From assembly GCF_014645895.1 (NCBI RefSeq), contig NZ_BMMP01000001.1:221530-285529 (forward strand): a stretch of 64,000 nt of DNA, in the 5' to 3' direction. The stretch is from Streptomyces daqingensis (lineage in GTDB: Bacteria > Actinomycetota > Actinomycetes > Streptomycetales > Streptomycetaceae). Both the position numbers and the translations under genes were made by a program. Positions 15,647 to 57,663 of the stretch are shown piece after piece (position 1 is the first letter of the stretch; each line of letters begins with the position of its first letter). The notes below the pieces were generated by a model. The model saw nothing but the letters and a program-made list of their open reading frames with translations, made no database searches and was not told the DNA's origin.

Positions 15647-15665
15647 GCACCGGCAGGAACCACCT

Positions 15666-38744: not shown

Positions 38745-40739
38745 ATGCGTTTTCAGCTGCTGGGGCCGTTGAGCATCGCAGACGGACACAACGTCGTCGT
38801 CCTCCAGCCCTCCAAGCCCACCAGCCTGCTCGCCGCGCTGCTCGCCCACCCCAACACGGTCGTCGCCACCGGCTATCTGCTCCGGGCCCTCTGGGACGAT
38901 GAACCGCCGGCCACGGCAAGGGCCGCCCTGCAGACCTGCGTTCTGCGGCTGCGCAAGATCTTCTCCAAGTACGGCATCGCCGACAGCGCCATCGAGGCCG
39001 TCCCGGGCGGGTACCGCATGCCCGCCGACGCCGCGACGCTCGACCTGGTCCGCTTCCGCGAACTGGTGCGGGAATCCCGGGAGTCGGAGGACGGCGAGAC
39101 CGAGCTGTACAAGCTCAAGGAGGCGCTGTCCCTGTGGCAGGGGCCGCTGCTGGCGAACGTCTCCTCGCAGATGCTCCACCGCGACGAGGTGCCCCGCCTC
39201 ACCGAGGAGCGGCTGCGCGCCCTGGAGCGTGCCTGCGACATCGAGCTGGCGATGGGACGCTGCCGCCAGGTCCTGGTGGAGCTGTGGGAGGCGGCACGTA
39301 CGCATCCCGGCCACGAGCGCTTCTCCGAACAGCTCATCGAGGCGCTGTACCGGACGGGCCGTCAGGGCGAGGCCTTCGCCGAGTACCGCAGGGTCAAGAC
39401 GCGGCTGAAGGAGGAGCTCGGCGTCGACCCCGGGCCGTCGCTGCAGCGCCTGGAGCTGTCGATCCTCCGCGGCGAGGACCTGGGCCGTACGGTCACGGAC
39501 CGCAGGCCGGCGCTGCCCGCCGGCGGCACCGCCACGGGCGGGGAGACGTCTTCCGGGGAGGCCTTCTCCGGGGAGGGTGCGACCGGCGCCCCCGGCAGCC
39601 GTGCGGCCGTGCTCGCGGACACGGGCCCGGCGGCGACCGCGAGCCGCCGCGTACCGGCCGCCCGTACCGCCACGTCCCCCACGACGGCGGCCCCCGCTCC
39701 GCCCGCACCCGTACGCGCCGTACGGCCCGCTCCCGTCTCGTGCTTCACCGGCCGCGCCGCCGACAGCGAGGCCATCGGGCAGTGGCTGACCGCGAAGGGG
39801 GACGCCGCCCCGGCTCTCGTGGTCGTCTCGGGCGCTCCCGGAGTGGGCAAGAGCGCCCTCGCGGCGCACACGGCGCACCGGATCAGGAGTGCGTTCCCCG
39901 GCGGCTGCCTCGTCCTGCCCCTCGTGGGTCCCGACGGAACGGGCGTCACCACGGAGGAGGCGCTGACGGCGCTTCAGACGCAGCGGCAGGAGACGGAGGC
40001 CGGGCAGGGCCCCTCCGGGGAGGGCCGGGGACGTTCGCTGCTGGTGCTCGACGACGCGCTCAGCGCCGACCAGGTGCGTCCGCTGCTGCCCGCCTCGGAG
40101 GGCAGCGCCGTCCTCGTGACCAGCAGGCGCGGGCTGGCGGGGCTGGTCGCCACCCACGGCGGGCTCGTGCACCGGCTGGGCACGCTCCGCCCCGAGGAGT
40201 CGCGGCAGTTGCTGATCAGCACCCTCGGTGAGGAGCGCGTCGCGGCGGAGCCCGAGGCAGCGGACCGGCTGGCCTCGCTGTGCGGCCACTTCCCCCTCGC
40301 CCTGCGTATCGCCGCAGCCCGCCTGCTGACACGGCCGGGTCTGCGCATCGCGGACTGCGCCGAGTGGATCGCCGCGGACGTGCCGGGCCGGCTGGCTCTC
40401 ACCGACGACCCCCGCATGTCCGTGCCGAACGTCCTCGACGGTGCCCTCCGCCGTCTGGAGCCGCGGCTCGCCGAGGCGTTCCTGCGCGTCGCCGCCGGGC
40501 GGAACGAGGCGGGCCGCGAGCACGGGCACGGCGGTACCGAAGGCCTCTCCGGTCTCCGGCCGGTCGCCGCGCGACCGCCCGAGGCCACCGAGGAGATGCT
40601 CGAACAGCTCGCGGACGCGGGCCTGTTGGAGGACGGTCCGCCCGGCCCGTACCGCATGCACGAGCTGCTGCGCCGCTACGCGCGTCGATCAGCCGGCGAA
40701 CCCGACGACGGGGATCTGCCGGAAGGTCATCCGGGCTGA
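38745..40739 (+). CDS. SARP-family pathway regulator with NB-ARC ATPase domain (AfsR-like)
   Basis: SARPs activate antibiotic clusters by binding direct heptamer repeats that overlap the -35 region. The 664-residue product has an OmpR-type winged helix (MRFQLLGPLSIADGHNVVVLQPSKPTSLLAALLAH...YLLRALWDDEPPATARAALQTCVLRLRKIF, residues 1-85) and a bacterial transcriptional activator domain to about residue 245. An Ala/Thr/Pro-rich linker leads to an NB-ARC P-loop, VVSGAPGVGKSALAAHTAHRI (about residues 360-380), with LLVLDDALSADQVRPLL and VLVTSRRGLAGL. It stops after the winged-helix region and has no TPR domain. It stands 75 bp before the RiPP biosynthetic run and is its likely activator. Confidence 0.92.
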   Translation: MRFQLLGPLSIADGHNVVVLQPSKPTSLLAALLAHPNTVVATGYLLRALWDDEPPATARAALQTCVLRLRKIFSKYGIADSAIEAVPGGYRMPADAATLDLVRFRELVRESRESEDGETELYKLKEALSLWQGPLLANVSSQMLHRDEVPRLTEERLRALERACDIELAMGRCRQVLVELWEAARTHPGHERFSEQLIEALYRTGRQGEAFAEYRRVKTRLKEELGVDPGPSLQRLELSILRGEDLGRTVTDRRPALPAGGTATGGETSSGEAFSGEGATGAPGSRAAVLADTGPAATASRRVPAARTATSPTTAAPAPPAPVRAVRPAPVSCFTGRAADSEAIGQWLTAKGDAAPALVVVSGAPGVGKSALAAHTAHRIRSAFPGGCLVLPLVGPDGTGVTTEEALTALQTQRQETEAGQGPSGEGRGRSLLVLDDALSADQVRPLLPASEGSAVLVTSRRGLAGLVATHGGLVHRLGTLRPEESRQLLISTLGEERVAAEPEAADRLASLCGHFPLALRIAAARLLTRPGLRIADCAEWIAADVPGRLALTDDPRMSVPNVLDGALRRLEPRLAEAFLRVAAGRNEAGREHGHGGTEGLSGLRPVAARPPEATEEMLEQLADAGLLEDGPPGPYRMHELLRRYARRSAGEPDDGDLPEGHPG

Positions 40740-40814
40740 CGCCCTTCCGCCACCGCACCGCACCGACCGCGCAGCCGCCTCGACCGCGCCCGACCACGCA
40801 GGGGTGTCACACAC

Positions 40815-43151
40815 ATGGCAACAGCCGCCTACGAAGCCGTAGCCGCGACCCGTCCGCGCATCCGCCGCGACGTGCTCTACACAGAGACGCCGGAAGGGGT
40901 CCTCTTCCACAACGCCGACGGCGGGTTCCAGCTCACCGCCAAGTCCGCCTACAGGTTCGCCACTCTGATCGTCCCCCACCTCGACGGGTCGCACTCGGTG
41001 AGCGAGATCAGCGAGGGCTTCGGGGACAGACAGCGCGCCATGCTCGGCGAACTCGTCAGAACGCTCTACGCCCGCGGCTTCGCCCGCGACGTGCCCGAGC
41101 CGGACGGCGCCCCCGGGGACGAAGGATTCCCCTCGCCCGAGGCTGCCCGCCGCTTCGCGCCGCAGATCGCGTACGTCGACCACTACGCCGACGACGCCGA
41201 GCGGCGCTTCGAGCGCTACCGCAGCGCCCGCGTGGCCGTCCTGGGAGAGGACGAGGTCGCCCGCTGGTGCGTGCTGAGCCTGATACGCAACGGCAGTTCG
41301 GCCGTCGGCGTACTGCCGGGCCTGGACCGTGCCGGGATCGACGAGGAGGCCGCCGAGGCGGCCGCCGACGGCTGCCCGGTCCGGCTGACCACGCTGCCCG
41401 GCGGCGATGCGGAAGGCCCGGCGGCCGGGGACGGCTGGGCCGGCCTGGACTCCTACGACGTCGTCCTCGTCACCGGCGGACCGCTCGCCGCGCAGCGGCT
41501 CTTCCCCCTGCTCAAGGCGGGCATCCCCAAGGGGTCCGCCGTCATCGCCGCCTGGTCCTACGGGGAGCAGGCCGTCGTGGGGCCGCTGATGGCGCAGGGG
41601 CGCAGCGGCTGCTTCTCGTGCGCCGTGCTCCGGCTCGGGGCGGGGGACGGCGCCGCCGCCGCGGCCGACGTGTGGAGCGCCCTGGCGATGCCGGGCGCCG
41701 TCCCGGCGGGCGGGAGCCCGGGCGGGCCGCTCGCGGCGATGACCGGCAACATGCTCGGCTACGAGGTCTTCCGGTTCACCACGGGGGCGCTGCGGGCGGA
41801 GACCGACGGCCAGTTGATCGTCCAGGACACCGCTTCGCTCGACGTCACCTCGGAGCCCCTGCTGCCGCACCCCCGCTGCACCATGTGCTCCCCGGCCGCC
41901 GCCTCGCCTTCTGCCTCAGTCTCGGCCTCCGCCTCCGCCTCCGTCGCCGCCGCGGCGCACCCGGCGGGCGGGGCCGTCACCTTCGACCTGGACGAGGCCG
42001 GCTCCGGGGGCGTGCCCATGCCGACCGTGGAGACCGCGCGGGACGCCGACGGCCTCGTCGAGGAGCTGAACCGGCGGTCCGTCCTGGTACGCGAGCACGC
42101 CGGGGTCTTCAAGCGGTTCGGCGACGAGGCGCTCACGCAGCTCCCGCTCAAGGTCGGGATCGTCGAACTCGGCGTGGGGCACGGCCGGTCGAGGACGGTC
42201 GCGGCGTTCGACACCCACCACGTCGCCGGCGCGCGCATGCGGGCACTGAACGCGGCCGCCGCCGTCTACGCGGAGCACGTCGTACCCTCCGGGCCTCTCG
42301 TCCCGGGCAGCCGGCTGGAGGCCGCGAGGGAGTCCATGAGCGTCGTGGCTCCCGGGCAGCTGACCATCGCCGCCGGCACGGGGGCGAAAGCGCCCGACGT
42401 CGCGGCGTGGACGGTGGCGACGTCGCTCGTCGGCAAGGAGCAGGTCCTCGTCCCCGAGGCCGCGGTCCGCACGTTCACACCGGCCAACTCAGCCCGGCTC
42501 TTCGAGGCCACGAGCGCGGGTACCGGTGCCGGCGCGTCACCGGCCGAGGCAGCGGCCCGCGGCCTGCTCTCCGCGCTGGGCCACGACGCCCTGATGCGGA
42601 CGGTGCGGGGCGCGCCCGCGCGGCGCGTCGAGCCGGCAACGGCCGCCGCGGACGGCACCCCCGCCGCCGACGGAACGGCCGCCGCGGACGCCGAACTCAC
42701 CTTCCTCGCCCGGTCGCTGGACCAGCTGGGCCTCGACTGGGAGCTGCTGGACCTCCGCGAGGAGAGCCGCAGCGGGGTGCACGTGCTCCTCGCCCGCGCC
42801 GGACAGGAATGGGCGGTGGGCAGCGAGACCGGCCGGACGGCCGCAGCCTCGGCGGCCCTCCGGGACCTGCTCGGACGGATACAGCTGAGCCGCGAGGAAC
42901 ACGCCGCGCCGGCCGACGCGGGCGACCCGCTGCTGCGGGACCTCGCCCCGGGCACGCTGCCGGTCGAGGAGGCCGCCGGGACGTTCGTGCCCGGAGCCGA
43001 CGGGCCCGCCGTGTGGAGCGACGTGTTGGAGCGGCTGCGCGCGGCCGGCAGGGACGCCCTCGTGGTGCCGACCGGCTCGGCCGACCTGCAGAGCGCCGGC
43101 ATCAGCACCGTCCGCGTGCTGCTCACCCGGGGCGCGGACCATGCCGGCTAG
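40815..43151 (+). CDS. RiPP E1-like partner protein with N-terminal RRE and degenerate YcaO-like C-terminus
   Basis: In azoline-forming systems this protein binds the leader peptide and presents it to YcaO. The N-terminal ~95 residues (RPRIRRDVLYTETPEGVLFHNADGGFQLTAKSAYRFATLIVPHLDG...) look like a RiPP recognition element. An E1-like domain follows (YRSARVAVLGEDEVARWCVLSLIRNG...YDVVLVTGGPL), with a Zn tetrad C266/C269 (GCFSC) and C355/C358 (CTMC). The C-terminal half, not usual for a plain E1, has a YcaO-like frame: TSAGTGAGASPAEAAARGLLSALGHDAL aligns with the YcaO helix SNGCASGGSLEEAVYFGLMEVLERDAF. Two Glu/Arg positions are lost (SALGHD for EVLERD), so it should not bind ATP normally. Its end overlaps the next gene by 11 bp. 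Confidence 0.88.
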   Translation: MATAAYEAVAATRPRIRRDVLYTETPEGVLFHNADGGFQLTAKSAYRFATLIVPHLDGSHSVSEISEGFGDRQRAMLGELVRTLYARGFARDVPEPDGAPGDEGFPSPEAARRFAPQIAYVDHYADDAERRFERYRSARVAVLGEDEVARWCVLSLIRNGSSAVGVLPGLDRAGIDEEAAEAAADGCPVRLTTLPGGDAEGPAAGDGWAGLDSYDVVLVTGGPLAAQRLFPLLKAGIPKGSAVIAAWSYGEQAVVGPLMAQGRSGCFSCAVLRLGAGDGAAAAADVWSALAMPGAVPAGGSPGGPLAAMTGNMLGYEVFRFTTGALRAETDGQLIVQDTASLDVTSEPLLPHPRCTMCSPAAASPSASVSASASASVAAAAHPAGGAVTFDLDEAGSGGVPMPTVETARDADGLVEELNRRSVLVREHAGVFKRFGDEALTQLPLKVGIVELGVGHGRSRTVAAFDTHHVAGARMRALNAAAAVYAEHVVPSGPLVPGSRLEAARESMSVVAPGQLTIAAGTGAKAPDVAAWTVATSLVGKEQVLVPEAAVRTFTPANSARLFEATSAGTGAGASPAEAAARGLLSALGHDALMRTVRGAPARRVEPATAAADGTPAADGTAAADAELTFLARSLDQLGLDWELLDLREESRSGVHVLLARAGQEWAVGSETGRTAAASAALRDLLGRIQLSREEHAAPADAGDPLLRDLAPGTLPVEEAAGTFVPGADGPAVWSDVLERLRAAGRDALVVPTGSADLQSAGISTVRVLLTRGADHAG

Positions 43152-45126
43152 CGCGGCCGAGACCGCCCGGACCGGAGCGCAGCAGGCCGGGTCGCCGGGA
43201 GAGCCCGTCGCCCTGCTGGAGCGGAGCCTGTCCCGGCTGGACGGGGCCGGGGTGTCCCTCGCCGTCCTCGGACGCCGGGACGAGTTCGCCGCCGGGGAGG
43301 AGGGCCCGCGGCCCCGGGACCCCGCCGCGGTGCCCGTCCACGTCTACGGGCAACACGTCCTCGTCGGCCCTGTCCCCGCCGAGGGGGAGGGCGGCCGTGC
43401 CGCGCCGGGGTGCCGCCGCTGCCTCGCCCGCCGGTGGCAGTCCGTCCGGTCGGTGTCCCTGCGCGATGCGCTGGAGACCGGCGGGGCGACCCACGCGGCG
43501 GGGGAGTGGCCGTACGCCCTCCCGTTCGCGGCGGACGCCGTCGCCGCGCTCGTCGCGGCCGTACGGGACCGTGCGGCGCGCCGCGGGAGCGGCGACGCGG
43601 GTGACGACCCGTTCCCCGAGGTGCACCTGCTGGACCTGCGGGCTCTGACCGTCCGCCACTACCCCCTCGTCCCGGACCCGCAGTGCCCGGAGTGCGGGGT
43701 GCCGGCCGACGACAGCGAGGACGCGGCACGCATGCCGCTCAAGCCCGCGCCCGAGCACAAGGCCGGTTCGTTCAGGGTGCGTTCGCTGGATGACTACGCC
43801 ATCGACGTGGCGGCCTTCGCCAACCCGGTGTGCGGGGCGCTGGGGCCGTCCGTCGTGCACGACGTCTCCTCGACGTCGACGTCCGCGACCATCGGCTGCT
43901 TCTCGATGCGCTCCGGCGACTACCTCCGCGAGACGTTCTGGGGCGGCCACGCCGACTCGTTCCAGGCGAGCGCCCGCATCGGGGTGCTGGAGGGACTGGA
44001 GCGCTACGCGGGCATGCGGGCCCGCGCCAAGACCACCCGTGTCAGGGGCGCACTGCGGGAGTTCGGCGACCTCGCCGTGGACCCCCGCGTCGTCGGCCTG
44101 TACTCCGAGGAGTTCTACAGCGCCAACCCCCGGGTGGTGCCCTTCACCCCGGACCGCGAGATCCCCTGGGTGTGGGGCTACTCCCTGCGAGACGGCGTCC
44201 CGCGCCTCGTGCCGGAGGTGCTGACGTACTACCACGCGCCGGGCCTGGAGAACCGGTTCGTGCAGGAGAGCTCCAACGGCTGCGCGTCGGGCGGGTCGTT
44301 GGAGGAGGCCGTCTACTTCGGCCTGATGGAGGTCCTGGAGCGCGACGCGTTCCTGCTCGCCTGGTACGGGATGCAGCCGCTGCCGGAGATCGACCCCTCG
44401 ACCAGCGAGCGCCGCTCGACCCGGCACATGGTCGACCGGCTCGCGATGTACGGATACCGCGCCCGCTTCTTCGACACCCGCGTCACCTTCCCGGTGCCCG
44501 TGATCACCGGTGTCGCCGAGCGGTTCGACGGCGGTCCGGGCCGCATGTGCTTCGGGGCGGGGGCCGGACTCGACCCCGAGGCGGCGCTCGACGGCGCGCT
44601 GTGCGAGATCGCGACCGACGCCGTCAACCTGCCGGGCCGCACGGAGAAGGACGAGCAGCGGCTGCGCGCCATGGCGGAGGACTTCGGCCGCGTCACCGCC
44701 CTCCACGACCACCCCCTGCTGTACGGCATCCCGGAGATGGGCCGGTACGCCGACTTCCTGCTGCGCTCCCGCCCCGCGGGTTCGGCCGGGTGCCGGGTCG
44801 CGGACCTGCGCTGGGACGAAGCCGGCCGAGGGCGGAACGACGGCGGGCCGGCGGACATCCGCGAGGAACTGCGGCGCTGCGTGGGGTCGGTGACCGACGC
44901 GGGCTTCGACGTGGTCGCCGTCGACCAGACGCTGCCGGAGCAGCGCACGCTCGGCCTGCATACCGTCAGCGTCCTCGTCCCCGGCCTGCTGCCCATCGAC
45001 TTCGGCTGGTCGAGGCAGCGGGCGCGCACCATGCCGAGGATGCGCACCGCGCTGCGGGAAGCCGGGCTCCGCGAGGACGACGTGGGCCCGGCGGACCTCA
45101 ATCCGGCGCCGCATCCCTTCCCCTGA
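43141..45126 (+). CDS. YcaO-domain azoline-forming cyclodehydratase 1
   Basis: YcaO enzymes use ATP to cyclise Cys/Ser/Thr onto the preceding carbonyl. The 661-residue product has an N-terminal module with a Zn tetrad C91/C94 (CRRC) and C182/C185 (CPEC), resembling the E1-like protein. An intact YcaO domain follows with IGVLEGLERYAG, the ATP/Mg helix SNGCASGGSLEEA...MEVLERDAFLLAW (about residues 378-408) and CFGAGAGLDPEAALDGALCEI. LVPGLLPIDFGW precedes the C-terminal PHPFP, which fits the PxPxP ending of azoline-forming YcaOs. ATG 43141 lies inside the end of the previous gene. A 58-bp gap separates it from the SagB gene. Confidence 0.93.
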   Translation: MPASAAETARTGAQQAGSPGEPVALLERSLSRLDGAGVSLAVLGRRDEFAAGEEGPRPRDPAAVPVHVYGQHVLVGPVPAEGEGGRAAPGCRRCLARRWQSVRSVSLRDALETGGATHAAGEWPYALPFAADAVAALVAAVRDRAARRGSGDAGDDPFPEVHLLDLRALTVRHYPLVPDPQCPECGVPADDSEDAARMPLKPAPEHKAGSFRVRSLDDYAIDVAAFANPVCGALGPSVVHDVSSTSTSATIGCFSMRSGDYLRETFWGGHADSFQASARIGVLEGLERYAGMRARAKTTRVRGALREFGDLAVDPRVVGLYSEEFYSANPRVVPFTPDREIPWVWGYSLRDGVPRLVPEVLTYYHAPGLENRFVQESSNGCASGGSLEEAVYFGLMEVLERDAFLLAWYGMQPLPEIDPSTSERRSTRHMVDRLAMYGYRARFFDTRVTFPVPVITGVAERFDGGPGRMCFGAGAGLDPEAALDGALCEIATDAVNLPGRTEKDEQRLRAMAEDFGRVTALHDHPLLYGIPEMGRYADFLLRSRPAGSAGCRVADLRWDEAGRGRNDGGPADIREELRRCVGSVTDAGFDVVAVDQTLPEQRTLGLHTVSVLVPGLLPIDFGWSRQRARTMPRMRTALREAGLREDDVGPADLNPAPHPFP

Positions 45127-45184
45127 CAGCCCGTCCGCCGCCTCGCCGATCAGACCGACCGCCCAGCAGAGAGGAGTGTCTCCC

Positions 45185-46828
45185 GTGGGATACGCCCGTG
45201 ACTACGCGGACGCCATCAAGCACCGGGCCAGAGTGCCGATGGAACCCGCAGACTTCGTCCCCGACTGGGCCGACCGCCCGAGGAAGGGCAAGTACTACCC
45301 GGGAACCGAGTCCTTTCCGCTGCCCGCATCGGACTACCCGTCCGGGGCCACCGCCGAGGCGGGCTGCCTTCCCGGCCGCCAGCCGCTGCCCGAGAGCTCC
45401 TTCACGCTGCCGCTGCTGTCGGGGATGCTGCGGGACTCCTACGGGCTGGTCGGACGGCGGCTGGGAGTACAGGCCAACAGCGACCTGGCCGCGCTGCCGC
45501 ACTACACTCAGACCAACTGGTCGCGCGGGACGGCCTCCGGGGGAGGGCTGTACCCCGTCAGCGTCTACTGGGCCTGCGGTCCCAGCGGTCCGCTGGCACC
45601 GGGCGTCTACCACTACGCCAACCAACTGCACGCCATGCAGCGCCTGCTGGCCGGAGACGTGACGGGCCACGTGCGGGAGGCCGCCGGCTGCGGCGGAGCC
45701 GGCCCGGAGACCGACCAGTTCCTGATCCTGGGCGTCAAGTACTGGCAGAACTCCTTCAAGTACAACAGCTTCTCCTTCCACGTCGTCAGCATGGACATCG
45801 GCACCGTCCTGCAGAGCTGGCGCATGTGGGCGCGGGCCCGCGGCCTGCGGATCGAACCGGCGATGTGGTTCGACGAGCCCCGCCTGAACAGGCTGCTGGG
45901 CACGGCGGAGGAGGACGAGGGCGTCTTCGCCGTCGTGCCGCTGACGTGGGACTCCGGCGTGCCGCGCGAGCCCGCGGGGGACGGCGCCGGAGTCTCCGGG
46001 CGTCCCGCCGCCGACGGTGCCCGCGCCGGTGCGGGAGAGCTGCCGTCCGTGCGCCACAAGGACGTCGAACTCTCCCGCAGAGTCCTCTCCTTCGACATCC
46101 TGGAGCGGGTACGCGAGGCGACCGCCGCGGACCCCGGGGCCCGTCCCGCCCCCGGCGCCCTCGCCGGCGCCGAAGCGGTGCCGCTGCCGGGCACGGGCGA
46201 CCCGCTGCCGCTGCCCCCTCCGCGGACGGAACCCATGACCGTGCGGGAGGCCCTGCGCGGCCGCCGCAGCAGCTTCGGCCGCTTCGACGCCGGCCGTCCC
46301 GTCAGCGCCGAACAGCTGGGCACCGCCCTGGCGGCCTCCGCCGGGGTCACGCTGGAGACGGACGCCGAACCGCCCGGCGGCGCGCGCCTGGTCAAGCTGT
46401 ACGCCTTCCTCAACCACGTCGAGGGCTTCGAACCGGGCGCCTACGAGTACGACGCGGACGCCCACGCGCTGCGCCCCGTCGTACCGGGCCCGCACGGCGA
46501 GTTCCTCCAGCGCAACTACTTCCTCGCCAACTACAACCTCGAACAGAGCGGCGCGGTGCTCGTCCCCACGGTCCGCACGGAGGCGGTGCTCGACGCCGTC
46601 GGCGACCGCGGATACCGCCTGTACGGAGCCACCACCGGGGCCGTCTCGCAGGCCTTCTACACCGTCTGCACGGCGCTCGGCCTCGGCTGCGGTGTGGCGC
46701 TGGGCTTCGACAACGTCTCCTACGTCGAGCAGCTGGGCCTGGAGCGCACCGGGGAGACCCCGCTGCTGATCATGCTGCTCGGCCACGAGCGGTCCCGGCC
46801 CGCCGACTTCCGCCACGAGATCGCCTGA
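45185..46828 (+). CDS. SagB-type FMN-dependent azoline dehydrogenase, two nitroreductase-like halves
   Basis: SagB enzymes oxidise thiazolines/oxazolines to thiazoles/oxazoles. The 547-residue product is about twice a single domain. The N-terminal half (about residues 60-260) has NWSRGTASGGGLYPVSVYWACGPSG and GVYHYANQLHAMQRLL. The C-terminal half (about 345-547) has MTVREALRGRRSSFGRFDAGRPVSAEQLGTAL, KLYAFLNHVEGFEPGAYEYD and VSQAFYTVCTALGLGCGVALGF. The RRSSFGRF block is a typical FMN phosphate site. GTG 45185 is preferred over GTG 45176 because GAGGAG (45171-45176) then has correct spacing. A Gly/Pro-rich linker joins the halves. Confidence 0.9.
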   Translation: MGYARDYADAIKHRARVPMEPADFVPDWADRPRKGKYYPGTESFPLPASDYPSGATAEAGCLPGRQPLPESSFTLPLLSGMLRDSYGLVGRRLGVQANSDLAALPHYTQTNWSRGTASGGGLYPVSVYWACGPSGPLAPGVYHYANQLHAMQRLLAGDVTGHVREAAGCGGAGPETDQFLILGVKYWQNSFKYNSFSFHVVSMDIGTVLQSWRMWARARGLRIEPAMWFDEPRLNRLLGTAEEDEGVFAVVPLTWDSGVPREPAGDGAGVSGRPAADGARAGAGELPSVRHKDVELSRRVLSFDILERVREATAADPGARPAPGALAGAEAVPLPGTGDPLPLPPPRTEPMTVREALRGRRSSFGRFDAGRPVSAEQLGTALAASAGVTLETDAEPPGGARLVKLYAFLNHVEGFEPGAYEYDADAHALRPVVPGPHGEFLQRNYFLANYNLEQSGAVLVPTVRTEAVLDAVGDRGYRLYGATTGAVSQAFYTVCTALGLGCGVALGFDNVSYVEQLGLERTGETPLLIMLLGHERSRPADFRHEIA

Positions 46829-46848
46829 CGCCGATGAGGGAGAACGCC

Positions 46849-49629: not shown

Positions 49630-50801
49630 TGCCGCAGCCCCAGCCCGCCACGCACGAAGCGGCCGTCCCCGCGACCGGCGGCGCCCCCGCGGCCGACCAG
49701 GGCGCAACGGCCCCGGGCGAATGGCAGCCCCTCCACATCTTCTACGCCGCCAACCCGCAGCCCCTGCTGGTCAACTGCGTACGCCCGCTGATCGCGTCGC
49801 TGCAGGAGGACGGCCTGCTCGCCGGGCACTTCTTCCTCAACTACTGGCTGGAGGGGCCGCACGTGCGCCTCCGGCTGAGGCCCGCGAGCGAGGAGGCCAC
49901 GGCCGAGGTGCGCCGCCGTGCCGAGGAGGCGGTCGACGCCTTCCTGAAGTCGCGCCCGGCGCTGTACGAGGTCGACACCGGCTTCCTCAACGAGTTCTAC
50001 AACGCGCTGTTCGAGATCGAGTTCCCGCAGGGCGACCGCGGCGATTTCATGGGCGAGGACGGCCGCATGAACCTGCGGCCCAACAACTCCCGCTCCTGGG
50101 AGCCCTATTCGCCGGAGTACGCCAAGTACGGCGGTCCCGCCGGTGTCGAGCTCGCCGAGTGGCACTTCGCGCACTCAAGCGACCTGGTGATCAACGCCTT
50201 CGGCACCATGAACCTGCATCTGCGCACGGTCCTGCTGGGCACCTCGGCGCAGCTGATGATGGTGATGCTCAGCTGCTTCCTCCCCGACGCCCGCAAGCAG
50301 GCCGACTACCTCGACCAGTACTACGAGTTCTGGCACCGGGCGTTCCCCGGCACGGGGTTCATCGGCTCCAAGGAGTACGACCGCAACTACGCCGAGACCG
50401 CCCCCGGCCTCCGCCGCCGCTACCGGGAGATCCGCGGAGCGGTCGCGGCGATGCGGGACGCCCGCCAGGGGGCGGCGGACGACGCGTCAGGCGCACCGGT
50501 ACGGCTTCCCGCCTTCCTGCAGGGCTGGTCGCAGCACTGCCTCGAACTGCGCAGCCGCGTGGTGTCGCTGGCGGAGAGCGGACGGCTGGTCTTCGCCGCT
50601 CCCGAGGACGACACCGCCCGGCCCACGACCGATCTGGCCCACGTCCTGCCGACGCTCCTCTCGCCGTACATGCATATGACCAACAACCGCCTGCACGTGA
50701 CGATCAGGGACGAGGCGTACCTCGCCAACGTCCTCGGCCGGGTCCTGCGCGAGGACCTCGACGCGGAGGCGGAACCCTCAGGCCCGGCGGTGTCGCCGTG
50801 A
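49629..50801 (+). CDS. SpaB_C / thiopeptide-type glutamate-elimination protein
   Basis: Elimination of glutamate from glutamylated Ser/Thr leaves dehydroalanine/dehydrobutyrine. The 390-residue product has EWQPLHIFYAANPQPLLVNCV, FFLNYWLEGPHVRLRLRP (Arg-rich active-site strand), EPYSPEYAKYGGPAGVELAEWHFAHSSD and the C-terminal YMHMTNNRLHVTIRDEAYL. That last block corresponds to the HMxxNR region of LanB elimination domains. Thiopeptide pyridine synthases share this fold, so a cyclase role cannot be fully excluded, but the retained blocks favour elimination. Coupled to LanB upstream and, via GTGA, to the M50 gene. Confidence 0.88.
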   Translation: MPQPQPATHEAAVPATGGAPAADQGATAPGEWQPLHIFYAANPQPLLVNCVRPLIASLQEDGLLAGHFFLNYWLEGPHVRLRLRPASEEATAEVRRRAEEAVDAFLKSRPALYEVDTGFLNEFYNALFEIEFPQGDRGDFMGEDGRMNLRPNNSRSWEPYSPEYAKYGGPAGVELAEWHFAHSSDLVINAFGTMNLHLRTVLLGTSAQLMMVMLSCFLPDARKQADYLDQYYEFWHRAFPGTGFIGSKEYDRNYAETAPGLRRRYREIRGAVAAMRDARQGAADDASGAPVRLPAFLQGWSQHCLELRSRVVSLAESGRLVFAAPEDDTARPTTDLAHVLPTLLSPYMHMTNNRLHVTIRDEAYLANVLGRVLREDLDAEAEPSGPAVSP

Positions 50802-51952
50802 CCGTCGACTCCTCCGGAACCGCCGGGTCGTCGGCGCTTCTCGCGCAGCGGCCCGCGCTCAGGCGGGACGTGCTCGTCAGCCCGCCGCTGCTGCGCGCCG
50901 CGGCCACCGTCCACCTGGTCAAGAACCCGTACACGGGGCGGTCGTTCGAGGTCGGCGAGAAGGAGCACTTCCTGATCTCCCGCCTGGACGGCGCCCGCAC
51001 CCTCCAGCAGGTCGGGGCGGAGTACGCGCAGCACTTCGGGAAGCGGCTGGGCGAGGCCAACTGGCGGCAGCTGCTGGGACTTCTCGGAAGCCGCGGTCTC
51101 CTCGCCGGCGCTCCGGAGCCCGGCCCGGCCGCCCGGCAGCCGTCCCCCGCCCCGGCGGAGACGGGCGGCATGGTCTCCGGGGGCGTGCTGCGCGGACGGG
51201 TGCGCATGGTGGCCGACGCGGAGGCGGCCACCGCCGTGCTGCACCGCGGTCTGCGTCCGCTGCTGCGGCCCGCCGTGCTTCTTCCGCTGCTCGCCCTCAC
51301 CGTGGCCATGGAGGTTCTTCTCGCGCTGCGGGTGGGGGAGTTGGGTCGCGACACCTGGTGGCTCGTGCAGCGTCCCGTGGCCCTGCTGGCGGTGTGCGTG
51401 ACCATCTGGTTCAGCATCGCCCTGCACGAGCTCGCCCACGGCGTGGCGGCCCGTCACCACGGCGCCGCCGTCAAGGAGATCGGCCTGCGCTGGCGCCTCC
51501 CGGTGGCGATCATGTACTGCACCGTCGGGGACTACGTGTTCCTGCGGCGCCGACGGCAGCAGCTCGCCATCGCCGGCGCGGGAGCCTTCGTCAACCTGGT
51601 CGTCCTGCTGCCGGCCGCCGCATGGTGGCTCGCGCTGCCGCCGGACGACTCCACCCGGAAGGTTCTTTCCGGACTGCTGCTGCTCGGCAGCTTCCAGGCG
51701 CTGGTGAATCTCGTTCCGCTGCCGCCTCTGGACGGCTACGCCATGCTCAGCCATGCTCTGCGGATCTCCGGCTACGCCCCGGAGAGCGGCCGGTACCTCA
51801 GGCTGCGGATGCGTGACCGAGCTGCCGCTGCCGCCTACCCGCGCCGGGCCCGCACTCTCTACGCCGCTTACGCGGCCGGTTCCGCCGTCCTCGTCTGCTG
51901 CGCGCTGGCAGGGGCGGCAGCCGCCGTGTACGCGCTTCTGACCACGTACTAG
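50798..51952 (+). CDS. M50 site-2-type membrane zinc protease with N-terminal PqqD/RRE-like domain
   Basis: The 384-residue product has an N-terminal PqqD-like segment (about residues 20-105: LRRDVLVSPPLLRAAATVHLVKNPYTGRSFEVGEKEHFLISRLDG...LLGSRGLLAG). About six membrane segments follow. The zinc site HELAHG (H210-E211) lies in TM sequence FSIALHELAHGVAARHHGA, with the second Asp motif NLVPLPPLDGY. Position within the cluster suggests a leader protease or maturation/immunity protease. The RRE-like domain would let it recognise the leader. GTG start overlaps the previous stop. Confidence 0.85.
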   Translation: MTVDSSGTAGSSALLAQRPALRRDVLVSPPLLRAAATVHLVKNPYTGRSFEVGEKEHFLISRLDGARTLQQVGAEYAQHFGKRLGEANWRQLLGLLGSRGLLAGAPEPGPAARQPSPAPAETGGMVSGGVLRGRVRMVADAEAATAVLHRGLRPLLRPAVLLPLLALTVAMEVLLALRVGELGRDTWWLVQRPVALLAVCVTIWFSIALHELAHGVAARHHGAAVKEIGLRWRLPVAIMYCTVGDYVFLRRRRQQLAIAGAGAFVNLVVLLPAAAWWLALPPDDSTRKVLSGLLLLGSFQALVNLVPLPPLDGYAMLSHALRISGYAPESGRYLRLRMRDRAAAAAYPRRARTLYAAYAAGSAVLVCCALAGAAAAVYALLTTY

Positions 51953-52061
51953 CCGAACGACCGCCTCCGACCCCCCACCGCCTCCTACACCCCCCCACAG
52001 ACCCCGATACACCGACCAGCCGCCCGACCAGCCGCCGACGACCACCTGAGAGCACCGACCC

Positions 52062-52100
52062 ATGAGCACTGCCAGCACCGAGGGGCACGAACACACATGA
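52062..52100 (+). CDS. Possible 12-codon leader ORF coupled to the ABC ATPase
   Basis: ATG at 52062 encodes MSTASTEGHEHT and its TGA overlaps the ATPase ATG (ATGA). Such a mini-ORF could couple translation across the 144-bp gap after the M50 gene, but the ribosome site is weak and it may be chance. Confidence 0.2.
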   Translation: MSTASTEGHEHT

Positions 52101-53080
52101 CCGACGCAACGGCCGTGCCGGCCGAACGGCACGAAGCAACAGAGCAGACCACGATCGTCATCGAGGAGATCCGCAAACGCTACGGCGACCGCGACGCCGT
52201 GGCAGGGGTCTCCCTGCAGGTGCGACGGGGCGAGTTCTTCGGCCTGCTCGGACCCAACGGGGCGGGCAAGACCACCCTGGTGGAGATCATGGAGGGGCTG
52301 CGGGAGGCGGACTCCGGGAAGGTCACCGTCCTCGGGCAGCAGCCCTGGCCCCGGAACGTCGCGCTGCTGCCGCGCATGGGCGTGCAGACCCAGTCGTCGG
52401 CTTTCTTCGTGCGGCAGACCGCCCGCGAGCATCTGACCACCGTCGCCGCCCTGTTCGGAGCGGGCCACGACGCCGCGGACAGCGCCCTGGCGGACGTCGG
52501 GCTGACCGGACAGCGCGATGTGATGGTGGAGAACCTCTCCGGCGGCCAGCGCCAGCGCCTCGCCATCGCCTCGGCCCTCGTGCACGGACCGGAACTGATC
52601 TTCCTCGACGAACCGACGGCCGCCCTCGACCCGCAGGCCCGCCGGGACCTGTGGGAAGTGCTGCGGGGCCTCAAGCGCCAGGGGCGCACGATCGTCTACA
52701 CCACCCACCACCTCGACGAGGCCGAAGCGCTCTGCGACCGCGTGGCCATCCTCGTCGACGGGCGCATCGCCGCGCTGGACTCGCCCCACAACCTCGTCTC
52801 CTCGGCCGGTGTCCCCACCCGTCTGATGATCCCCGAGGGCCGGCTGAGCCCCGAGGACGCGCTGGCCATCGAGGGAGTCGACAGCGCGGAGCTGCAGGGC
52901 GGTTCGCTCGTCCTGGAGACCCGGGTGTCGGGGCAGGTCCTCACGGCGGTCGACAAGCTCGCGGGCCTCAACGACGTACAGACGCGCACCGCGACCCTCG
53001 AGGACGTCTACCTCGAACTCACCGGCTCCCTCGCGGGCACGGGCCAGGACGGCGACAACGACACGGAGCAGCAGGCATGA
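52097..53080 (+). CDS. ABC transporter ATP-binding protein (exporter/immunity)
   Basis: The 327-residue product has Walker A GPNGAGKTTL, Q-loop MGVQTQSSAFF, signature LSGGQRQRL, Walker B LIFLDEPTAALDPQ and the H-loop TTHHLDE. The C-terminal ~80 residues are the DrrA-type extension found in drug and lantibiotic exporters. It pairs with the ABC-2 permease overlapping its end (ATGA). In this context it likely exports the modified peptide or gives self-resistance. Confidence 0.95.
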   Translation: MTDATAVPAERHEATEQTTIVIEEIRKRYGDRDAVAGVSLQVRRGEFFGLLGPNGAGKTTLVEIMEGLREADSGKVTVLGQQPWPRNVALLPRMGVQTQSSAFFVRQTAREHLTTVAALFGAGHDAADSALADVGLTGQRDVMVENLSGGQRQRLAIASALVHGPELIFLDEPTAALDPQARRDLWEVLRGLKRQGRTIVYTTHHLDEAEALCDRVAILVDGRIAALDSPHNLVSSAGVPTRLMIPEGRLSPEDALAIEGVDSAELQGGSLVLETRVSGQVLTAVDKLAGLNDVQTRTATLEDVYLELTGSLAGTGQDGDNDTEQQA

Positions 53081-53832
53081 GCGCGTACGCAGCACTTACG
53101 GGAGCCGGATTCCGGGCCCAGGTGAGGGACAAGGCCACTCTCTTCTTCACCTTCGCCTTCCCGCTCATCTTCCTCGTCGTCTTCGGGCTGATCTTCAGCG
53201 GTCAGGACGTGAAGGCGTCCGGGCGGCCCTACATCTCCTACATCGCCCCCGGCGTGATGTCGTGGGGCGTGGCCAACGCAGCCGTCTTCAGCGTGGCGTT
53301 CACCCTCATGCAGTGGCGACGCGACGACCTTCTGCGGCTCATCAGGATGACGCCGACGAGGCTCCCGGCCGTCCTCGGGTCCCGCTACGTCCTGGCGCTG
53401 GGCGTCGGGGTGGTGCAGGCGGTGCTCTTCGTCGGCATCGCGCTGCTGCCGCCCTTCGGGCTGGAACTCAAGAGCAGCTGGCCGCTGGCGCTTCCCGTGC
53501 TGGTCTTCGGGATCACCGCGTTCCTGACCATCGGCGTGGTGATCGGCTCCCTGGCGGACACTCCGGAGGCCGTCGCCGCCATCGCCAACTGCCTGATGGT
53601 GCCCATGGCGTTCCTCTCGGGCTCCTTCATGCCGATGGACATGCTGCCCGACTGGCTGCAGACCGGCTCCCGGATTCTGCCGCTGCGCTACCTCAACGAC
53701 GCGGTGTCCGCTGCCCTTTCGGGACGGGGCGACATGGGCGACATCGTGCTCGGATGCGGCGGGCTGGTCGTCTTCACCGTCATCTTCGGCGCCGTCTCAC
53801 TGAAGACCTTCCGCTGGAGCAACCGGGCATGA
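53077..53832 (+). CDS. ABC-2 type permease
   Basis: The 251-residue membrane protein has about six membrane segments (TLFFTFAFPLIFLVVFGLIF, VMSWGVANAAVFSVAFTLM, YVLALGVGVVQAVLFVGIALL, LALPVLVFGITAFLTIGVVIGSL, AIANCLMVPMAFLSGSFMPM and a last LVVFTVIFGAVSL). It has the ABC-2 block SGSFMPMDMLPDWLQTGSRILPLRYLNDAV. It is translationally coupled on both sides, to the ATPase and to YcaO 2. Confidence 0.94.
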   Translation: MSAYAALTGAGFRAQVRDKATLFFTFAFPLIFLVVFGLIFSGQDVKASGRPYISYIAPGVMSWGVANAAVFSVAFTLMQWRRDDLLRLIRMTPTRLPAVLGSRYVLALGVGVVQAVLFVGIALLPPFGLELKSSWPLALPVLVFGITAFLTIGVVIGSLADTPEAVAAIANCLMVPMAFLSGSFMPMDMLPDWLQTGSRILPLRYLNDAVSAALSGRGDMGDIVLGCGGLVVFTVIFGAVSLKTFRWSNRA

Positions 53833-55835
53833 CCGCGACGGCCGCCCTCGGCGGCACCACAGCGGACGCACCGGCGGTCGGCGTCCCCGGCCCCCTGCGG
53901 GCCGCTCGAGACCGGCTCCAGCGCGCCCTGGAGCAGCGCCGCGACGGCACGCCGGCGCCCCTCGTGGTGCCGCTGGGGGCGGCCGACGCCCTCGGCGGCG
54001 GCCCCACCGCGGGCACGGGCCGCGGCGGGGCGCCCGCCGACCCCTTCGCGGAGCAGCGCTCCGCCGCCACCGTCCACCTCACCGCGCAGGCCGTCCTGGT
54101 GGGGCCCTGGGGCGGCGACGGCACCGCACCAGCCTGCGGGCGCTGCCTGGCCATGCGCTGGCAGCGGCTGCGCACCCGCACCGAACGGGACGCGCTGGAG
54201 ACGGGCGGCGCCGTGCGGGCCGCGGGGGAGTGGCCCGTGCTGCCGGCCCACGTCCTTGACGCCGTCCGCGCCCTCCACGAGGCCGCCGCCGGGGGCGAGT
54301 TGCGGCCCGGCGGGCAGCAGTCACCCGCCGACCGCGCCCTGCCGCAGGTCTCCCGGCTCGACCTGGAGACCCTGGCGGTACGCACCTTCCCGCTGCTCGC
54401 GGAACCCCTCTGCCCGCACTGCGGCCCGAGCGGAGCCGACAGCCCCGAAGCGGCCGCCCGGCTGCGTCCCGTCGCGCGGCCCAAACCGGACGCCGGCTCC
54501 TACCGGCTGCGCCCCGCGTCCTCCTATCCGATGCCGCTCCAGGCACTGGCCAACCCGGTCACGGGAGTGCTGGGCGCGGGCACGTGGATCAACGTCACCT
54601 CGCCGACGACGGCACCCGTGGCCGGCAGCGTCTTCATGCGCGGTTACGCGGGTCTGACGGACGTCACCTGGAGCGGACAGGGCAACGGCTTCGACACCAG
54701 CCGCGAACTCGCCTTCCTGGAAGGCCTGGAGCGGTACGCGGGAACCCACAGGCGGCGCCGCGGCGCCCTGCTGACCGCCGCCTACAGCGACATCCGCGAT
54801 GAGGCCCTGGACCCGGCGGAATGCGGCCTGTACGCACCGGAGACCTACCGCGACGACCCGATGGTCGCCCCGTTCGACCCGCACCGGGAGATCCCCTGGG
54901 TGTGGGGCTTCTCGCTGCGCGACGAGCGCCCCGTCCTGGTGCCGGCGCGCCTCGCCTACTACAGCGCGGGCCTGGCCGCCGACAACTTCGTCTTCGAGTG
55001 CTCCAATGGTTGCGCCATCGGCAGTTGCCTGGAGGAGGCGGTGCTCGGCGGGCTGCTCGAACTCATCGAGCGGGACGCGTTCCTGCTCGCCTGGTACGGC
55101 GGTACGCCGCTCACCGAGATCGACCTCCGCACGGCCGGCGGCGCGGTCGCCGCGATGGCGGCACGGGCGGCGATGCAGGGCTACGACGTGCACGCCTTCG
55201 ACAACCGCATCGATCTGGCCGTCCCCGTGGTGACCGCTCTCGCCGTGCGCAGGGACGGCGGTCCCGGAAGTTTCTCCTTCGGAGCCGGGGCGAGCCTCGA
55301 CCCGTGGGCCGCGCTGGAGGGCGCGCTGTCGGAAGTCCTCACCTACATCCCGCACCTGCCCCGCCAGGTGGCCGAGCGCCGGGGCGAACTGGAGGCGATG
55401 GCCGACGACTTCGGGAAAGTGCTGCATCTGAAGGACCACGCGCAGCTCTACGGCCTGCCGAGGATGACCCCGCACGTGCGCACGTACCTGGAGCCTCCCC
55501 GCAAGGAGCCGGCGGAGTCGCTGTGGGAGGGGTGGGAGCGGCGGCAGCGGCCCCGTACCGGGGACCTGGCCGACGACCTCGCGCTGTGCCGGGACGAGCT
55601 CGTACGGGCGGGCCACGACGTGATCGTCGTGGACCAGACGACGCCCGAGCAGGAACGGATCGGGCTGTGCACCGTCGCCACCCTCGTCCCCGGGCTGCTG
55701 CCCATCGACTTCGGCTGGAGGCGCCAGAGGGCCCCGCTGATGCCGAGGTTGCGCACGGCGGCACGGCGGGCGGGTCTGCGCTCGGCGGACCTCACGGACA
55801 GCGAGATCCGGATGGTCCCGCATCCCTTCCCGTAA
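53829..55835 (+). CDS. YcaO-domain azoline-forming cyclodehydratase 2
   Basis: The 668-residue product has the same plan as YcaO 1: N-terminal Zn tetrad C103/C106 (CGRC) and C195/C198 (CPHC), then an intact YcaO domain with LAFLEGLERYAG, SNGCAIGSCLEEAVLGGLLELIERDAFLLAWYG (about residues 392-424) and FGAGASLDPWAALEGALSEV. LVPGLLPIDFGW precedes a final VPHPFP, matching the PxPxP end. It is clearly paralogous to YcaO 1 but diverged, so the two may treat different residues (for example Cys versus Ser/Thr) or different stages. ATG 53829 overlaps the permease stop. A perfect terminator follows. Confidence 0.94.
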   Translation: MTATAALGGTTADAPAVGVPGPLRAARDRLQRALEQRRDGTPAPLVVPLGAADALGGGPTAGTGRGGAPADPFAEQRSAATVHLTAQAVLVGPWGGDGTAPACGRCLAMRWQRLRTRTERDALETGGAVRAAGEWPVLPAHVLDAVRALHEAAAGGELRPGGQQSPADRALPQVSRLDLETLAVRTFPLLAEPLCPHCGPSGADSPEAAARLRPVARPKPDAGSYRLRPASSYPMPLQALANPVTGVLGAGTWINVTSPTTAPVAGSVFMRGYAGLTDVTWSGQGNGFDTSRELAFLEGLERYAGTHRRRRGALLTAAYSDIRDEALDPAECGLYAPETYRDDPMVAPFDPHREIPWVWGFSLRDERPVLVPARLAYYSAGLAADNFVFECSNGCAIGSCLEEAVLGGLLELIERDAFLLAWYGGTPLTEIDLRTAGGAVAAMAARAAMQGYDVHAFDNRIDLAVPVVTALAVRRDGGPGSFSFGAGASLDPWAALEGALSEVLTYIPHLPRQVAERRGELEAMADDFGKVLHLKDHAQLYGLPRMTPHVRTYLEPPRKEPAESLWEGWERRQRPRTGDLADDLALCRDELVRAGHDVIVVDQTTPEQERIGLCTVATLVPGLLPIDFGWRRQRAPLMPRLRTAARRAGLRSADLTDSEIRMVPHPFP

Positions 55836-55948: not shown

Positions 55949-55981
55949 GAACGGCTCTCTCCGCGCGGGAGAGAGCCGTTC
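55949..55981. terminator. Perfect 14-bp bidirectional terminator between YcaO 2 and the precursor gene
   Basis: GAACGGCTCTCTCC (55949-55962) pairs perfectly with GGAGAGAGCCGTTC (55968-55981) over a 5-nt loop. It separates the rightward biosynthetic run from the leftward precursor gene. Confidence 0.85.
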
Positions 55982-56011: not shown

Positions 56012-56188
56012 TCAGGCGCTGCACGAGGTGGTGCTGGTGGTCGACGAGCAGGTCGAGGTGGACGAGCAGCTCGTCGAACCGGCGAGGACGACCTCGCTCG
56101 CGTCCGAGTAGTCGGAGATCTCGAAGGTCTCCGACTCGAGTTCCAGGATCTCGTCGGCGAGCGAGGCGAGGGAGGACTTCTCAGTCAT
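56012..56188 (-). CDS. RiPP precursor peptide with Ser/Thr/Cys-only core
   Basis: The 58-residue peptide has an acidic 37-residue leader (MTEKSSLASLADEILELESE followed by TFEISDYSDASEVVLAG) and a 21-residue C-terminal part. That part contains 10 Ser, 7 Thr and 3 Cys plus a terminal Ala; its last 19 residues are SCSSTSTCSSTTSTTSCSA. The leader pattern (LADEILELE...FEISDYSD) resembles thiazolylpeptide-type precursors. Cleavage after LAG is my inference. AAGGAG precedes the ATG by five bases. An in-frame upstream extension to 56296 exists but lacks leader character. Cys would become thiazoles and Ser/Thr oxazoles or dehydroamino acids by the adjacent enzymes. Confidence 0.9.
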   Translation of the reverse strand: MTEKSSLASLADEILELESETFEISDYSDASEVVLAGSTSCSSTSTCSSTTSTTSCSA

Positions 56189-56225: not shown

Positions 56226-56308
56226 CGAGGTGTGCCGTCATTCCATCCGAGGCCGCTGGCAGATGGCTCGATGTTCCGCTCACACCTCGCTGACACCTGG
56301 TGTCAGCG
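56226..56308. promoter_or_regulatory. SARP-type heptamer repeats between the precursor gene and the M20 gene
   Basis: On the + strand CACACCT (56281), GACACCT (56292) and TCAGCGG (56303) recur every 11 bp with 4-bp spacers, the layout of SARP direct repeats. The same block contains a perfect palindrome, CGCTGACAC-CTG-GTGTCAGCG (56288-56308). CGAGGTGTG at 56226-56234 is the inverted copy of CACACCTCG at 56281-56289, so each divergent gene has a copy facing it. Confidence 0.6.
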
Positions 56309-56352
56309 GACTGAGAGCACCCCGGCTCCGGGAGTGCTGAAAGGATGAACGC

Positions 56353-57663
56353 GTGAGCCGAAAAGGCGCCGTCACCGGCGAGAGAGCCCCCGTCCTGCAG
56401 GGACTGCAGGACATCCTCAGGCCGCTGGTGGCCTTCTACCTCGACCTGCACAGGAACCCCGAACTCTCCGGCCGCGAGAGCCGCACCGCCTCCCGGTTCG
56501 CGGAGTGGCTGGAGCAGGAGCCGTACCGGGTGACGAGGGGCGTGGGCGGCCACGGCGTCGTCGGCGTCCTGCACAACGGCACGGGGCCCTGCGTGATGCT
56601 GCGTGCCGAACTGGACGCGCTGCCGGTGACGGAGCGGACCGGCCTGGCGTACGCCGCCGAAGGGCCCGTCATGCACGCCTGCGGCCACGACCTGCATCTG
56701 GCGGCCCTGGCGGGGGCCGCGACGCTGCTGGCCCGTTCCGCGGACAGCTGGCGCGGCACGGTGCTGATCGTGGCGCAGCCCGCCGAGGAGACCCTGGAAG
56801 GGGCGCGGGCGATGCTGGAGGACGGGCTGTACCGGCGCTTCCCGCGGCCGGACACCGTGCTCGCGCAGCACTGCGCGCCCCTGCCTGCGGGGATGGTCGC
56901 CCACGCGGACCCGGCTGGGCACGCGCCGGTCCTGGGCGGCAGCGTGACGATGGAGGCGACCGTCCGGGGGCGGGGCGGTCACGCCGGAGCCCCCCACATG
57001 GCCGTCGACCCCCTGCTGACCGCGGCGTCCGCCGTGCTCAGGCTGCAGGGCGTCGTGGCGCGCGAGACGGCGCCGGGGGAGCAGGCCGTGCTCAACGTCG
57101 GTTCGCTGCACGCCGGTTCGGGGGCCAACGTGATCCCGGACGAAGCCGTCCTGGGCGTCACTGTCCGGGCCCTCTCGGAGGCATCCCTCGACCGGCTGGC
57201 GGAGGCGGTCGAGCGGATCGTGCGTGCCGAGTGCGCGGCCTCCGGCTGCCCGGAGGAGCCACGGATCGACGTCGTCTCCCGCTCGCCCGTCACGATGACG
57301 GACCGGGCGGCGACGGAGGCGGTGCGCGAGGCCCACCGGGAGCTGTACGGGCCGGAACGCGTCTCCGGGTGGCTTCCCACCCTCGCCACCGAGGACTTCC
57401 CCCTCTACGGCGACGCGGGCTCCCCGCTCCACGGGGAGGAGGGCATAGCGACCGTCTACTGGATGCTCGGCGCCGTCGGGGCGGGACAGTACGCCCGCGC
57501 CCCCGGTGAGACCGCCGCCGAGAAGCTCGCCGCCCTGCCGGCGAACCATGCACCGGACTTCGCGCCGGACGTGCGGGCGAGCCTCCCGGCAGGGGTGACG
57601 GCCATGACCAGCGCGGCCCTGGCCCGGCTGGGGGAGCCCCCGCGCACGGTCCGGAGCCGCTGA
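56353..57663 (+). CDS. M20-family amidohydrolase/carboxypeptidase
   Basis: The 436-residue product has the metal and catalytic set of M20D amidohydrolases: VMHACGHDLHLAALAGAATLL, VAQPAEETLEGARAMLEDGLY, QHCAPLPAGMVAH, the dimerisation-domain block RGRGGHAGAPHMAVDPLLTAASAVL and GWLPTLATEDFPLYGDAG. Members hydrolyse N-acyl or amide bonds of small substrates. It is divergent from the precursor gene and shares its putative SARP site, so it may trim, deacylate or inactivate the product. GTG 56353 has AAGGA seven bases upstream; an ATG at 56345 is out of frame. Confidence 0.9.
   Translation: MSRKGAVTGERAPVLQGLQDILRPLVAFYLDLHRNPELSGRESRTASRFAEWLEQEPYRVTRGVGGHGVVGVLHNGTGPCVMLRAELDALPVTERTGLAYAAEGPVMHACGHDLHLAALAGAATLLARSADSWRGTVLIVAQPAEETLEGARAMLEDGLYRRFPRPDTVLAQHCAPLPAGMVAHADPAGHAPVLGGSVTMEATVRGRGGHAGAPHMAVDPLLTAASAVLRLQGVVARETAPGEQAVLNVGSLHAGSGANVIPDEAVLGVTVRALSEASLDRLAEAVERIVRAECAASGCPEEPRIDVVSRSPVTMTDRAATEAVREAHRELYGPERVSGWLPTLATEDFPLYGDAGSPLHGEEGIATVYWMLGAVGAGQYARAPGETAAEKLAALPANHAPDFAPDVRASLPAGVTAMTSAALARLGEPPRTVRSR

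Follow-up and report, generated by a model that had tools for sequence, protein, structure and literature searches.

A conserved Streptomyces gene cluster for a probable linear azole/dehydro peptide with a near-invariant Ser/Thr/Cys core

The window analyzed here is a stretch of 64,000 nucleotides of Streptomyces daqingensis (assembly GCF_014645895.1, contig NZ_BMMP01000001.1, positions 221,530 to 285,529 of the forward strand); all coordinates count from its first letter. An earlier note, made from the letters alone, had placed at 38745-57663 a gene cluster for a ribosomally synthesized and post-translationally modified peptide (RiPP). It is indeed one RiPP cluster, and every gene that the note had named was confirmed by family matches. 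The cluster encodes its own precursor of 58 residues. Its core is likely to become a linear peptide of azoles and dehydro-residues, and a membrane protease is predicted to cut off the leader as the peptide is exported. In related loci the core is almost constant in amino acids while the DNA beneath it drifts. The cluster appears to be a widespread, uncharacterized variant of the LanB-dependent linear azole peptides.

The precursor is encoded on the minus strand (56188-56012). Its C-terminal 21 residues form the core, STSCSSTSTCSSTTSTTSCSA, and it scores above the cut-off for both TIGR03892 and NF033400. A search of 5.8 billion proteins returned 96 relatives, and many of the named ones are called “thiazolylpeptide-type bacteriocin”, the name that NCBI already gives to precursors of the family. 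To collect related loci, the glutamylation protein of the split LanB dehydratase (LanB-N) was scanned against one genome per species. It gave 107 relatives, of which 80 were kept; the “long relatives” are the 55 loci of at least 22.6 kb. A precursor is present in 53 of these 55, which together with the 96 homologues shows that the cluster is not a chance assembly.

The core was compared in 63 loci, one precursor each. Its mean pairwise amino-acid identity is 0.937, that of the 19 residues before it is 0.882, and those of seven cluster enzymes, set beside these 63 loci, range from 0.553 to 0.686. Amino-acid conservation is therefore highest in the core among the stretches compared. At the DNA level the trend is reversed: the identity of the core (0.820) is below that of the leader part (0.875). 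The core is identical to that of the source strain in 34 of the 63 loci. Among 81 precursors, a count that includes the source locus and possibly some genomes twice, 49 have this same core, encoded by 39 different DNA sequences. Six Ser positions that are invariant in the 63 loci use both TCN and AGY codons. Because Ser codons switch family in this way, the ratio of non-synonymous to synonymous polymorphism (pN/pS) was judged unsuitable for assessing selection on the core, and amino-acid identity was set against DNA identity instead. The 63 loci are those of the 80 in which a search with the leader motif only found precursors, all with the same kind of core; thus the sample was not selected by its core.

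RiPP cores usually change faster than their enzymes. A contrast is given by a sister type of linear azole peptide (LAP), the kind of locus L100 described below, detected in 6 of 246 genomes: the mean ungapped identity over the last 25 residues of 12 precursors is 0.35. This contrast is crude, as the set is small (three of the seven genomes with that type), paralogues of one cluster are mixed and no gapped alignment was used.

Some loci depart from the common form. In L016, L018, L032, L071 and L077 the precursor lies before the regulator gene, on the plus strand, and its core differs (CTSTSSTSTSSSTCSTTSCSA); gene position and core have changed together in this group. Two loci, L027 and L042, carry two precursor genes per cluster, with slightly different cores.

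The features of the cluster, with the family matches on which they rest, are as follows.

38745..40739, plus strand: SARP-family regulator with winged helix, BTAD and NB-ARC domains (Pfam BTAD 132.4, NB-ARC 40.3, Trans_reg_C 35.3 bits)
40815..43151, plus strand: F protein with an N-terminal RiPP recognition element (RRE), an E1/ThiF-like domain and a C-terminal degenerate YcaO (TIGR03693 58.9 bits, below the model cut-off; TIGR03882 49.6 bits)
43141..45126, plus strand: YcaO1, a truncated C domain fused to an intact YcaO, with the end PHPFP (PF02624 266.7, TIGR03604 292.7 bits)
45176..46828, plus strand: SagB-type azoline dehydrogenase dependent on flavin mononucleotide (FMN), two domains (TIGR03605 130 bits, in two stretches)
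46834..49629, plus strand: LanB glutamylation protein, LanB-N, of the TbtB/GodF type (PF04738 154.1 bits; PDB 6ec7, E 9e-37)
49629..50801, plus strand: LanB glutamate-elimination protein, LanB-C, of the TbtC/GodG type (PF14028 136.1 bits; TIGR03891 91.8 bits, above cut-off)
50798..51952, plus strand: site-2-type M50 metalloprotease with an N-terminal RRE-like domain (M50 38.9 bits)
52097..53080, plus strand: ABC exporter ATPase, DrrA type (PF00005 102.7 bits; TIGR01188 214.7 bits, below cut-off)
53077..53832, plus strand: ABC exporter permease, DrrB type (TIGR01247 61.7 bits, below cut-off)
53829..55835, plus strand: YcaO2, a truncated C domain fused to an intact YcaO, with the end PHPFP (PF02624 277.6, TIGR03604 333.7 bits)
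55949..55981, no strand: perfect inverted repeat of 13 bp in the gap where YcaO2 and the precursor converge (stem in the sequence; fold z -3.54)
56012..56188, minus strand: precursor peptide, 58 residues (TIGR03892 49.5 bits, cut-off 25; 96 homologues)
56015..56077, minus strand: core region, 21 residues, Ser, Thr and Cys only plus a final Ala (read from the sequence)
56353..57663, plus strand: M20-family amidohydrolase/peptidase, possible trimming enzyme (TIGR01891 234.7 bits, above cut-off)

The ten genes from SARP, whose best start is the ATG at 38745, to YcaO2 (38745-55835) all lie on the plus strand; the precursor follows YcaO2 on the minus strand, and M20 comes next on the plus strand. 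Stop-start overlaps had been said to join most of these genes. By their coordinates this holds at five of the nine junctions of the ten genes. The gene order SARP-F-YcaO1-SagB-LanBN-LanBC-M50-ABC-ABC-YcaO2-M20 is identical in 50 of the 55 long relatives, with SARP found in all 55 and M20 placed in 52. Most precursor genes (50 of 56 counted) lie between YcaO2 and M20 and are read from the opposite strand. None of 200 shuffles was as stable as the inverted repeat at 55949..55981, which may be a two-way terminator for YcaO2 and the precursor. A sigma-70 and terminator scan returned no matches; the repeat has no T run and was therefore missed by the terminator scan.

The family assignments suggest how the precursor would be processed. 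The RRE of the F protein would hold the leader and hand the peptide on to the two YcaO proteins, acting as F-dependent cyclodehydratases, and SagB would oxidize the resulting azolines to azoles. LanB-N would then glutamylate Ser and Thr beside azoles with Glu-tRNA, and LanB-C would eliminate glutamate to give dehydroalanine or dehydrobutyrine (Dha/Dhb). The RRE-bearing M50 protease would cleave the leader in the membrane next to the DrrAB-type exporter, and the M20 hydrolase may trim the remainder.

For the azole-forming part, both YcaO proteins carry the truncated C domain (TIGR03882) ahead of the intact YcaO and share the end PHPFP. Their mutual identity is 45%, against about 33-39% with a thiopeptide YcaO. 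Eight YcaO motif residues are the same in all 21 aligned copies of YcaO1 and in all 21 of YcaO2; the ATP-motif residues are kept in these copies. We infer that one F protein serves these two cyclodehydratases. The reading of the F protein as an RRE-E1-like protein stood (TIGR03693, TIGR03882), and its RRE matches PbtF (8t19, E 0.0026), but a C-terminal YcaO remnant had to be added to it. All 61 copies of this remnant have lost the Glu/Arg motif residues, a loss seen in 0 of 21 copies each of YcaO1 and YcaO2. Two thiopeptide F proteins were examined: that of L147 has a YcaO remnant (29.6 bits), and that of L145 has no Pfam match. We had considered the remnant as a new feature and rejected it because of L147.

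The lost YcaO motifs of the F protein could be taken as a sign that the locus has decayed, or that its enzymes serve another precursor. This seems hardly credible, since the motif loss is family-wide (61/61) and a thiopeptide F protein shares the remnant, and since the reading frames are open across the cluster genes. Scans of the source genome point the same way. They found one match to the precursor type (4 of 4 candidates scored) and three YcaO places (8 of 8 scored), and the pyridine-synthase/LanB-C model matched once, to the cluster LanB-C itself (5 of 9 scored); all are inside the cluster. With one precursor match and all three YcaO places here, there is no support for a precursor elsewhere, a case that the earlier note had raised as its own possible refutation. 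These results support its proposal that the enzymes act on the cluster's own precursor.

The dehydrating part is a split LanB. LanB-C starts at ATG 49629, where it overlaps the LanB-N stop by one base. Its 390 residues are matched at 100% identity by a database protein of equal length. The structure match of LanB-N, PDB 6ec7 (a lantibiotic dehydratase domain protein), is one that we take to be TbtB. The M50 protease combines an RRE-like domain with a site-2 protease fold.

These genes correspond to those of the goadsporin type, i.e. YcaO, SagB and a split LanB, with no pyridine synthase found. The earlier note had left the choice between thiopeptides and goadsporin-like linear azole/dehydro peptides. 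The first half of this reading would imply a macrocycle, with the single LanB-C performing the [4+2] step or both steps. The matches to TIGR03891 and TIGR03892 are in line with it, as are the thiopeptide-type F and YcaO proteins; the F protein, fused YcaO, SagB and split LanB of a thiopeptide or other pyritide cluster are all present. In addition the predicted model of LanB-C (mean pLDDT 79.7) ranks TbtD first in a fold search of the PDB. But a [4+2] pyridine synthase was not found in the cluster, whether by family models, residues or nearest relatives. LanB-C reaches 86.7 bits on the pyridine-synthase model, for a cut-off of 325. In 10 of 10 thiopeptide loci it is closer to the neighboring LanB-C gene, whose elimination role is deduced from thiopeptide gene order, than to the pyridine synthase. 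It also retains two residues of the elimination enzymes, the His and the second Arg; in pyridine synthases these are Tyr and, for the most part, Asn or Val, with one exception among ten (L123, which keeps LRLR). This comparison covers 9 elimination and 10 pyridine-synthase rows, the neighbor at L122 being absent, and 12 of the 80 family members. Finally, 7 of 71 distinct genes have Cys as the first core residue. The pyridine-synthase score, the single LanB-C match in the genome, the nearest relatives and the residues led us to reject the thiopeptide reading despite the TbtD fold rank, and we regard it as very improbable. The goadsporin-like half of the earlier reading fits. One thiopeptide-like locus, L148 (in genome G1032), has matches to the ABC pair (37% and 24%) and to the M20 hydrolase (41% identical).

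A lanthipeptide with azoles, in which Dha/Dhb and Cys close lanthionine rings, would also account for a split LanB and for the three Cys of the core. However, the scans of the cluster proteins reported no LanC-type cyclase. There are moreover two intact YcaO proteins, and YcaO proteins commonly consume Cys. We hold this alternative to be most unlikely.

We return to the linear azole/dehydro peptide and to the arrangement of its residues. In the source strain the core Cys are at positions 4, 10 and 19, with spacings that are multiples of three; they are consistent with the “up to three thiazoles” proposed earlier. For goadsporin, azoles form in X1-(S/T/C)-X2 units and Dha residues require adjacent azoles, according to PMC5303826. 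From this rule and the Cys spacing we would guess a triplet register, by analogy, with azoles at core positions 1, 4, 7, 10, 13, 16 and 19 and Dha/Dhb candidates at 3, 6, 9, 12, 15 and 18, i.e. preceding every azole except the first. Among 71 distinct genes Cys never occurs at positions 3, 6, 9, 12, 15 and 18. Several counts nevertheless weigh against such a register. In the same genes Cys occurs at positions 2, 14 and 20 (5/71, 6/71 and 3/71 respectively). In a wider protein set Cys is at position 3 in 7 of 86 precursors and at position 9 in 1 of 86. This set excludes from the column counts 11 of 97 precursors that are not of the main form, and it was clustered at 90% identity, so that rare variants are overweighted relative to nature. 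The distant precursors P0094, P0099 and P0103 form a subfamily with the core STSCSCSSTSSTCSSTTSTTSCCA, in which Cys breaks the triplet register.

The cluster is a unit with definite borders. Each of seven flanking proteins of the source locus has matches in 0 or 1 of the 80 loci; they are not common to the relatives, which sets the borders and indicates that the surroundings differ between species. Upstream (1411-24470) lie housekeeping genes for EF-P, CarB, PriA and RsmB with a NusB domain, which suggests that the cluster sits in a core chromosomal region and not on a mobile element. A search of plasmids with the LanB-C protein gave 18 records, all below 60% identity. Downstream, at 57964-60627 on the minus strand, are Lipoprotein_15 and Nuo51-type genes, common to L005 only among the 80 loci compared.

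About one in six of the genomes sampled from the source genus (47 of 295) carry the precursor; for the order the figure is 70 of 391 genomes, in 4 of 10 genera. A phylum-wide search matched 5 of 396 genomes, each of them from the source genus. These counts include the source genome, and those for the order and the phylum a few partial matches. Micromonospora and Sphaerimonospora are among the named related loci outside the source genus. Partial precursor matches, or matches split into two adjacent stretches, were seen at G367:C1:56505-56647, G325:C430:693-818 and G088:C1:6169955-6170059; these are possibly decayed copies.

One related locus raises the question of a known product. The spongiicolazolicins are linear azole peptides with some dehydro-residues, produced by Streptomyces sp. 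CWH03 and, according to the review PMC8838263, 29 and 28 residues long. The record of Streptomyces pacificus CWH03 carries the cluster with an identical core (L074). If the precursor were cut at two places one residue apart, AAEVVLAG plus the core would make 29 residues and AEVVLAG plus the core 28. A search of CWH03 with the LanB-N family found matches in the L074 cluster and at C16, and none at L100, the second LAP cluster of this strain. On the same core and the two lengths we had first taken the identity as nearly proven. We withdrew it when L100 was found in CWH03.

L100 (about 9006-19670) has, by Pfam, a YcaO, a nitroreductase-family (SagB-like) protein, an M50 protease with PqqD and a LanB-C; its LanB-N similarity appears by tblastn only, with no Pfam LanB-N in its frames. 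Its four precursor genes stand in tandem and have goadsporin-like triplet cores; the precursor tails are likewise compatible with 28 and 29 residues. Of the four YcaO places of CWH03, three are in the L074 cluster and one is in L100. PMC11583998 likens the spongiicolazolicins to nostatin, with tripeptides whose third residue is a natural one, a pattern that fits L100 better. L100 may well be where the spongiicolazolicins really come from and is at least as good a candidate as the cluster described here. With this second candidate the family is not equated with spongiicolazolicin, and we consider that identity unlikely, though less so than the other alternatives above.

For the linear azole/dehydro peptide reading, the parts are of known kinds. 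Their combination is different: two fused YcaO proteins, an F protein, a split LanB with no pyridine synthase, an M50 protease with an RRE, an M20 hydrolase and a core of Ser, Thr and Cys. New here are the conserved cluster unit, the almost frozen core under drifting DNA and the RRE-like domain on the M50 protease. In the open-access literature searched, we found no description of the core or of the family and no characterized product.

The conservation of the core is notable for a family of this frequency in the genus, and the near-constant core hints at a job common to these species. It is near-constant across diverse actinomycetes, with different codons and in different surroundings. This leads us to propose, tentatively and as a minority possibility, that selection has frozen this RiPP, the product of two paralogous azole machines. 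It would then be no weapon in an arms race; it would be a common molecule that has a single fixed partner, such as a signal or morphogen conserved among filamentous actinomycetes. Every side chain of the core before the final Ala is a possible substrate, which makes the core an unusual test case from nature for the sharing of sites between YcaO and LanB enzymes; the system also bears on why two YcaO paralogues are retained.

The combination differs from those of goadsporin, the coryneazolisins and the dehydrazoles in the features tested. The thiopeptides (thiomuracin, GE2270 and berninamycin kinds) share with the cluster the RRE F protein, the fused YcaO, SagB, the split LanB and a TIGR03892-type precursor, and, in one of the two examined, the degenerate YcaO tail on the F protein. 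Unlike them, the cluster has two paralogous fused YcaO proteins, a core of Ser, Thr and Cys only before its final Ala, and no pyridine synthase that could be found.

The goadsporin kind fits best. Goadsporin (god, Streptomyces sp. TP-A0584; PMC5303826) also has a YcaO-type cyclodehydratase, an FMN dehydrogenase, a split LanB and no pyridine, with Dha dependent on adjacent azoles. But goadsporin has GodD alone, whereas two YcaO proteins and a separate F protein are present here, and it has the peptidase-domain ABC transporter GodB in place of an RRE-M50 protease. Its acetyltransferase GodH is a trait of goadsporin and not of the wider kind; no such N-acetyltransferase is among the scanned genes of the cluster. 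SARP, M20 and a core in which only the final Ala is not Ser, Thr or Cys further separate the cluster from god.

The coryneazolisins of Corynebacterium (Cox et al. 2015, PMC4603692) likewise have two YcaO (D) proteins, lanthipeptide-like dehydratases and no [4+2] enzyme, and their precursors are very similar within the group. There one D protein is discrete and the other fused, and the core contains Ile; here both are fused and Ile is absent. The dehydrazoles (carnazolamide, PMC10676384) resemble the predicted product in having azoles and Dha preceding azoles. They are dehydrated by a DUF4135 LanM-type enzyme and have an NHLP leader, whereas the cluster described here has a LanB dehydratase (PF04738 and PF14028) and a 58-residue TIGR03892 precursor with a short leader.

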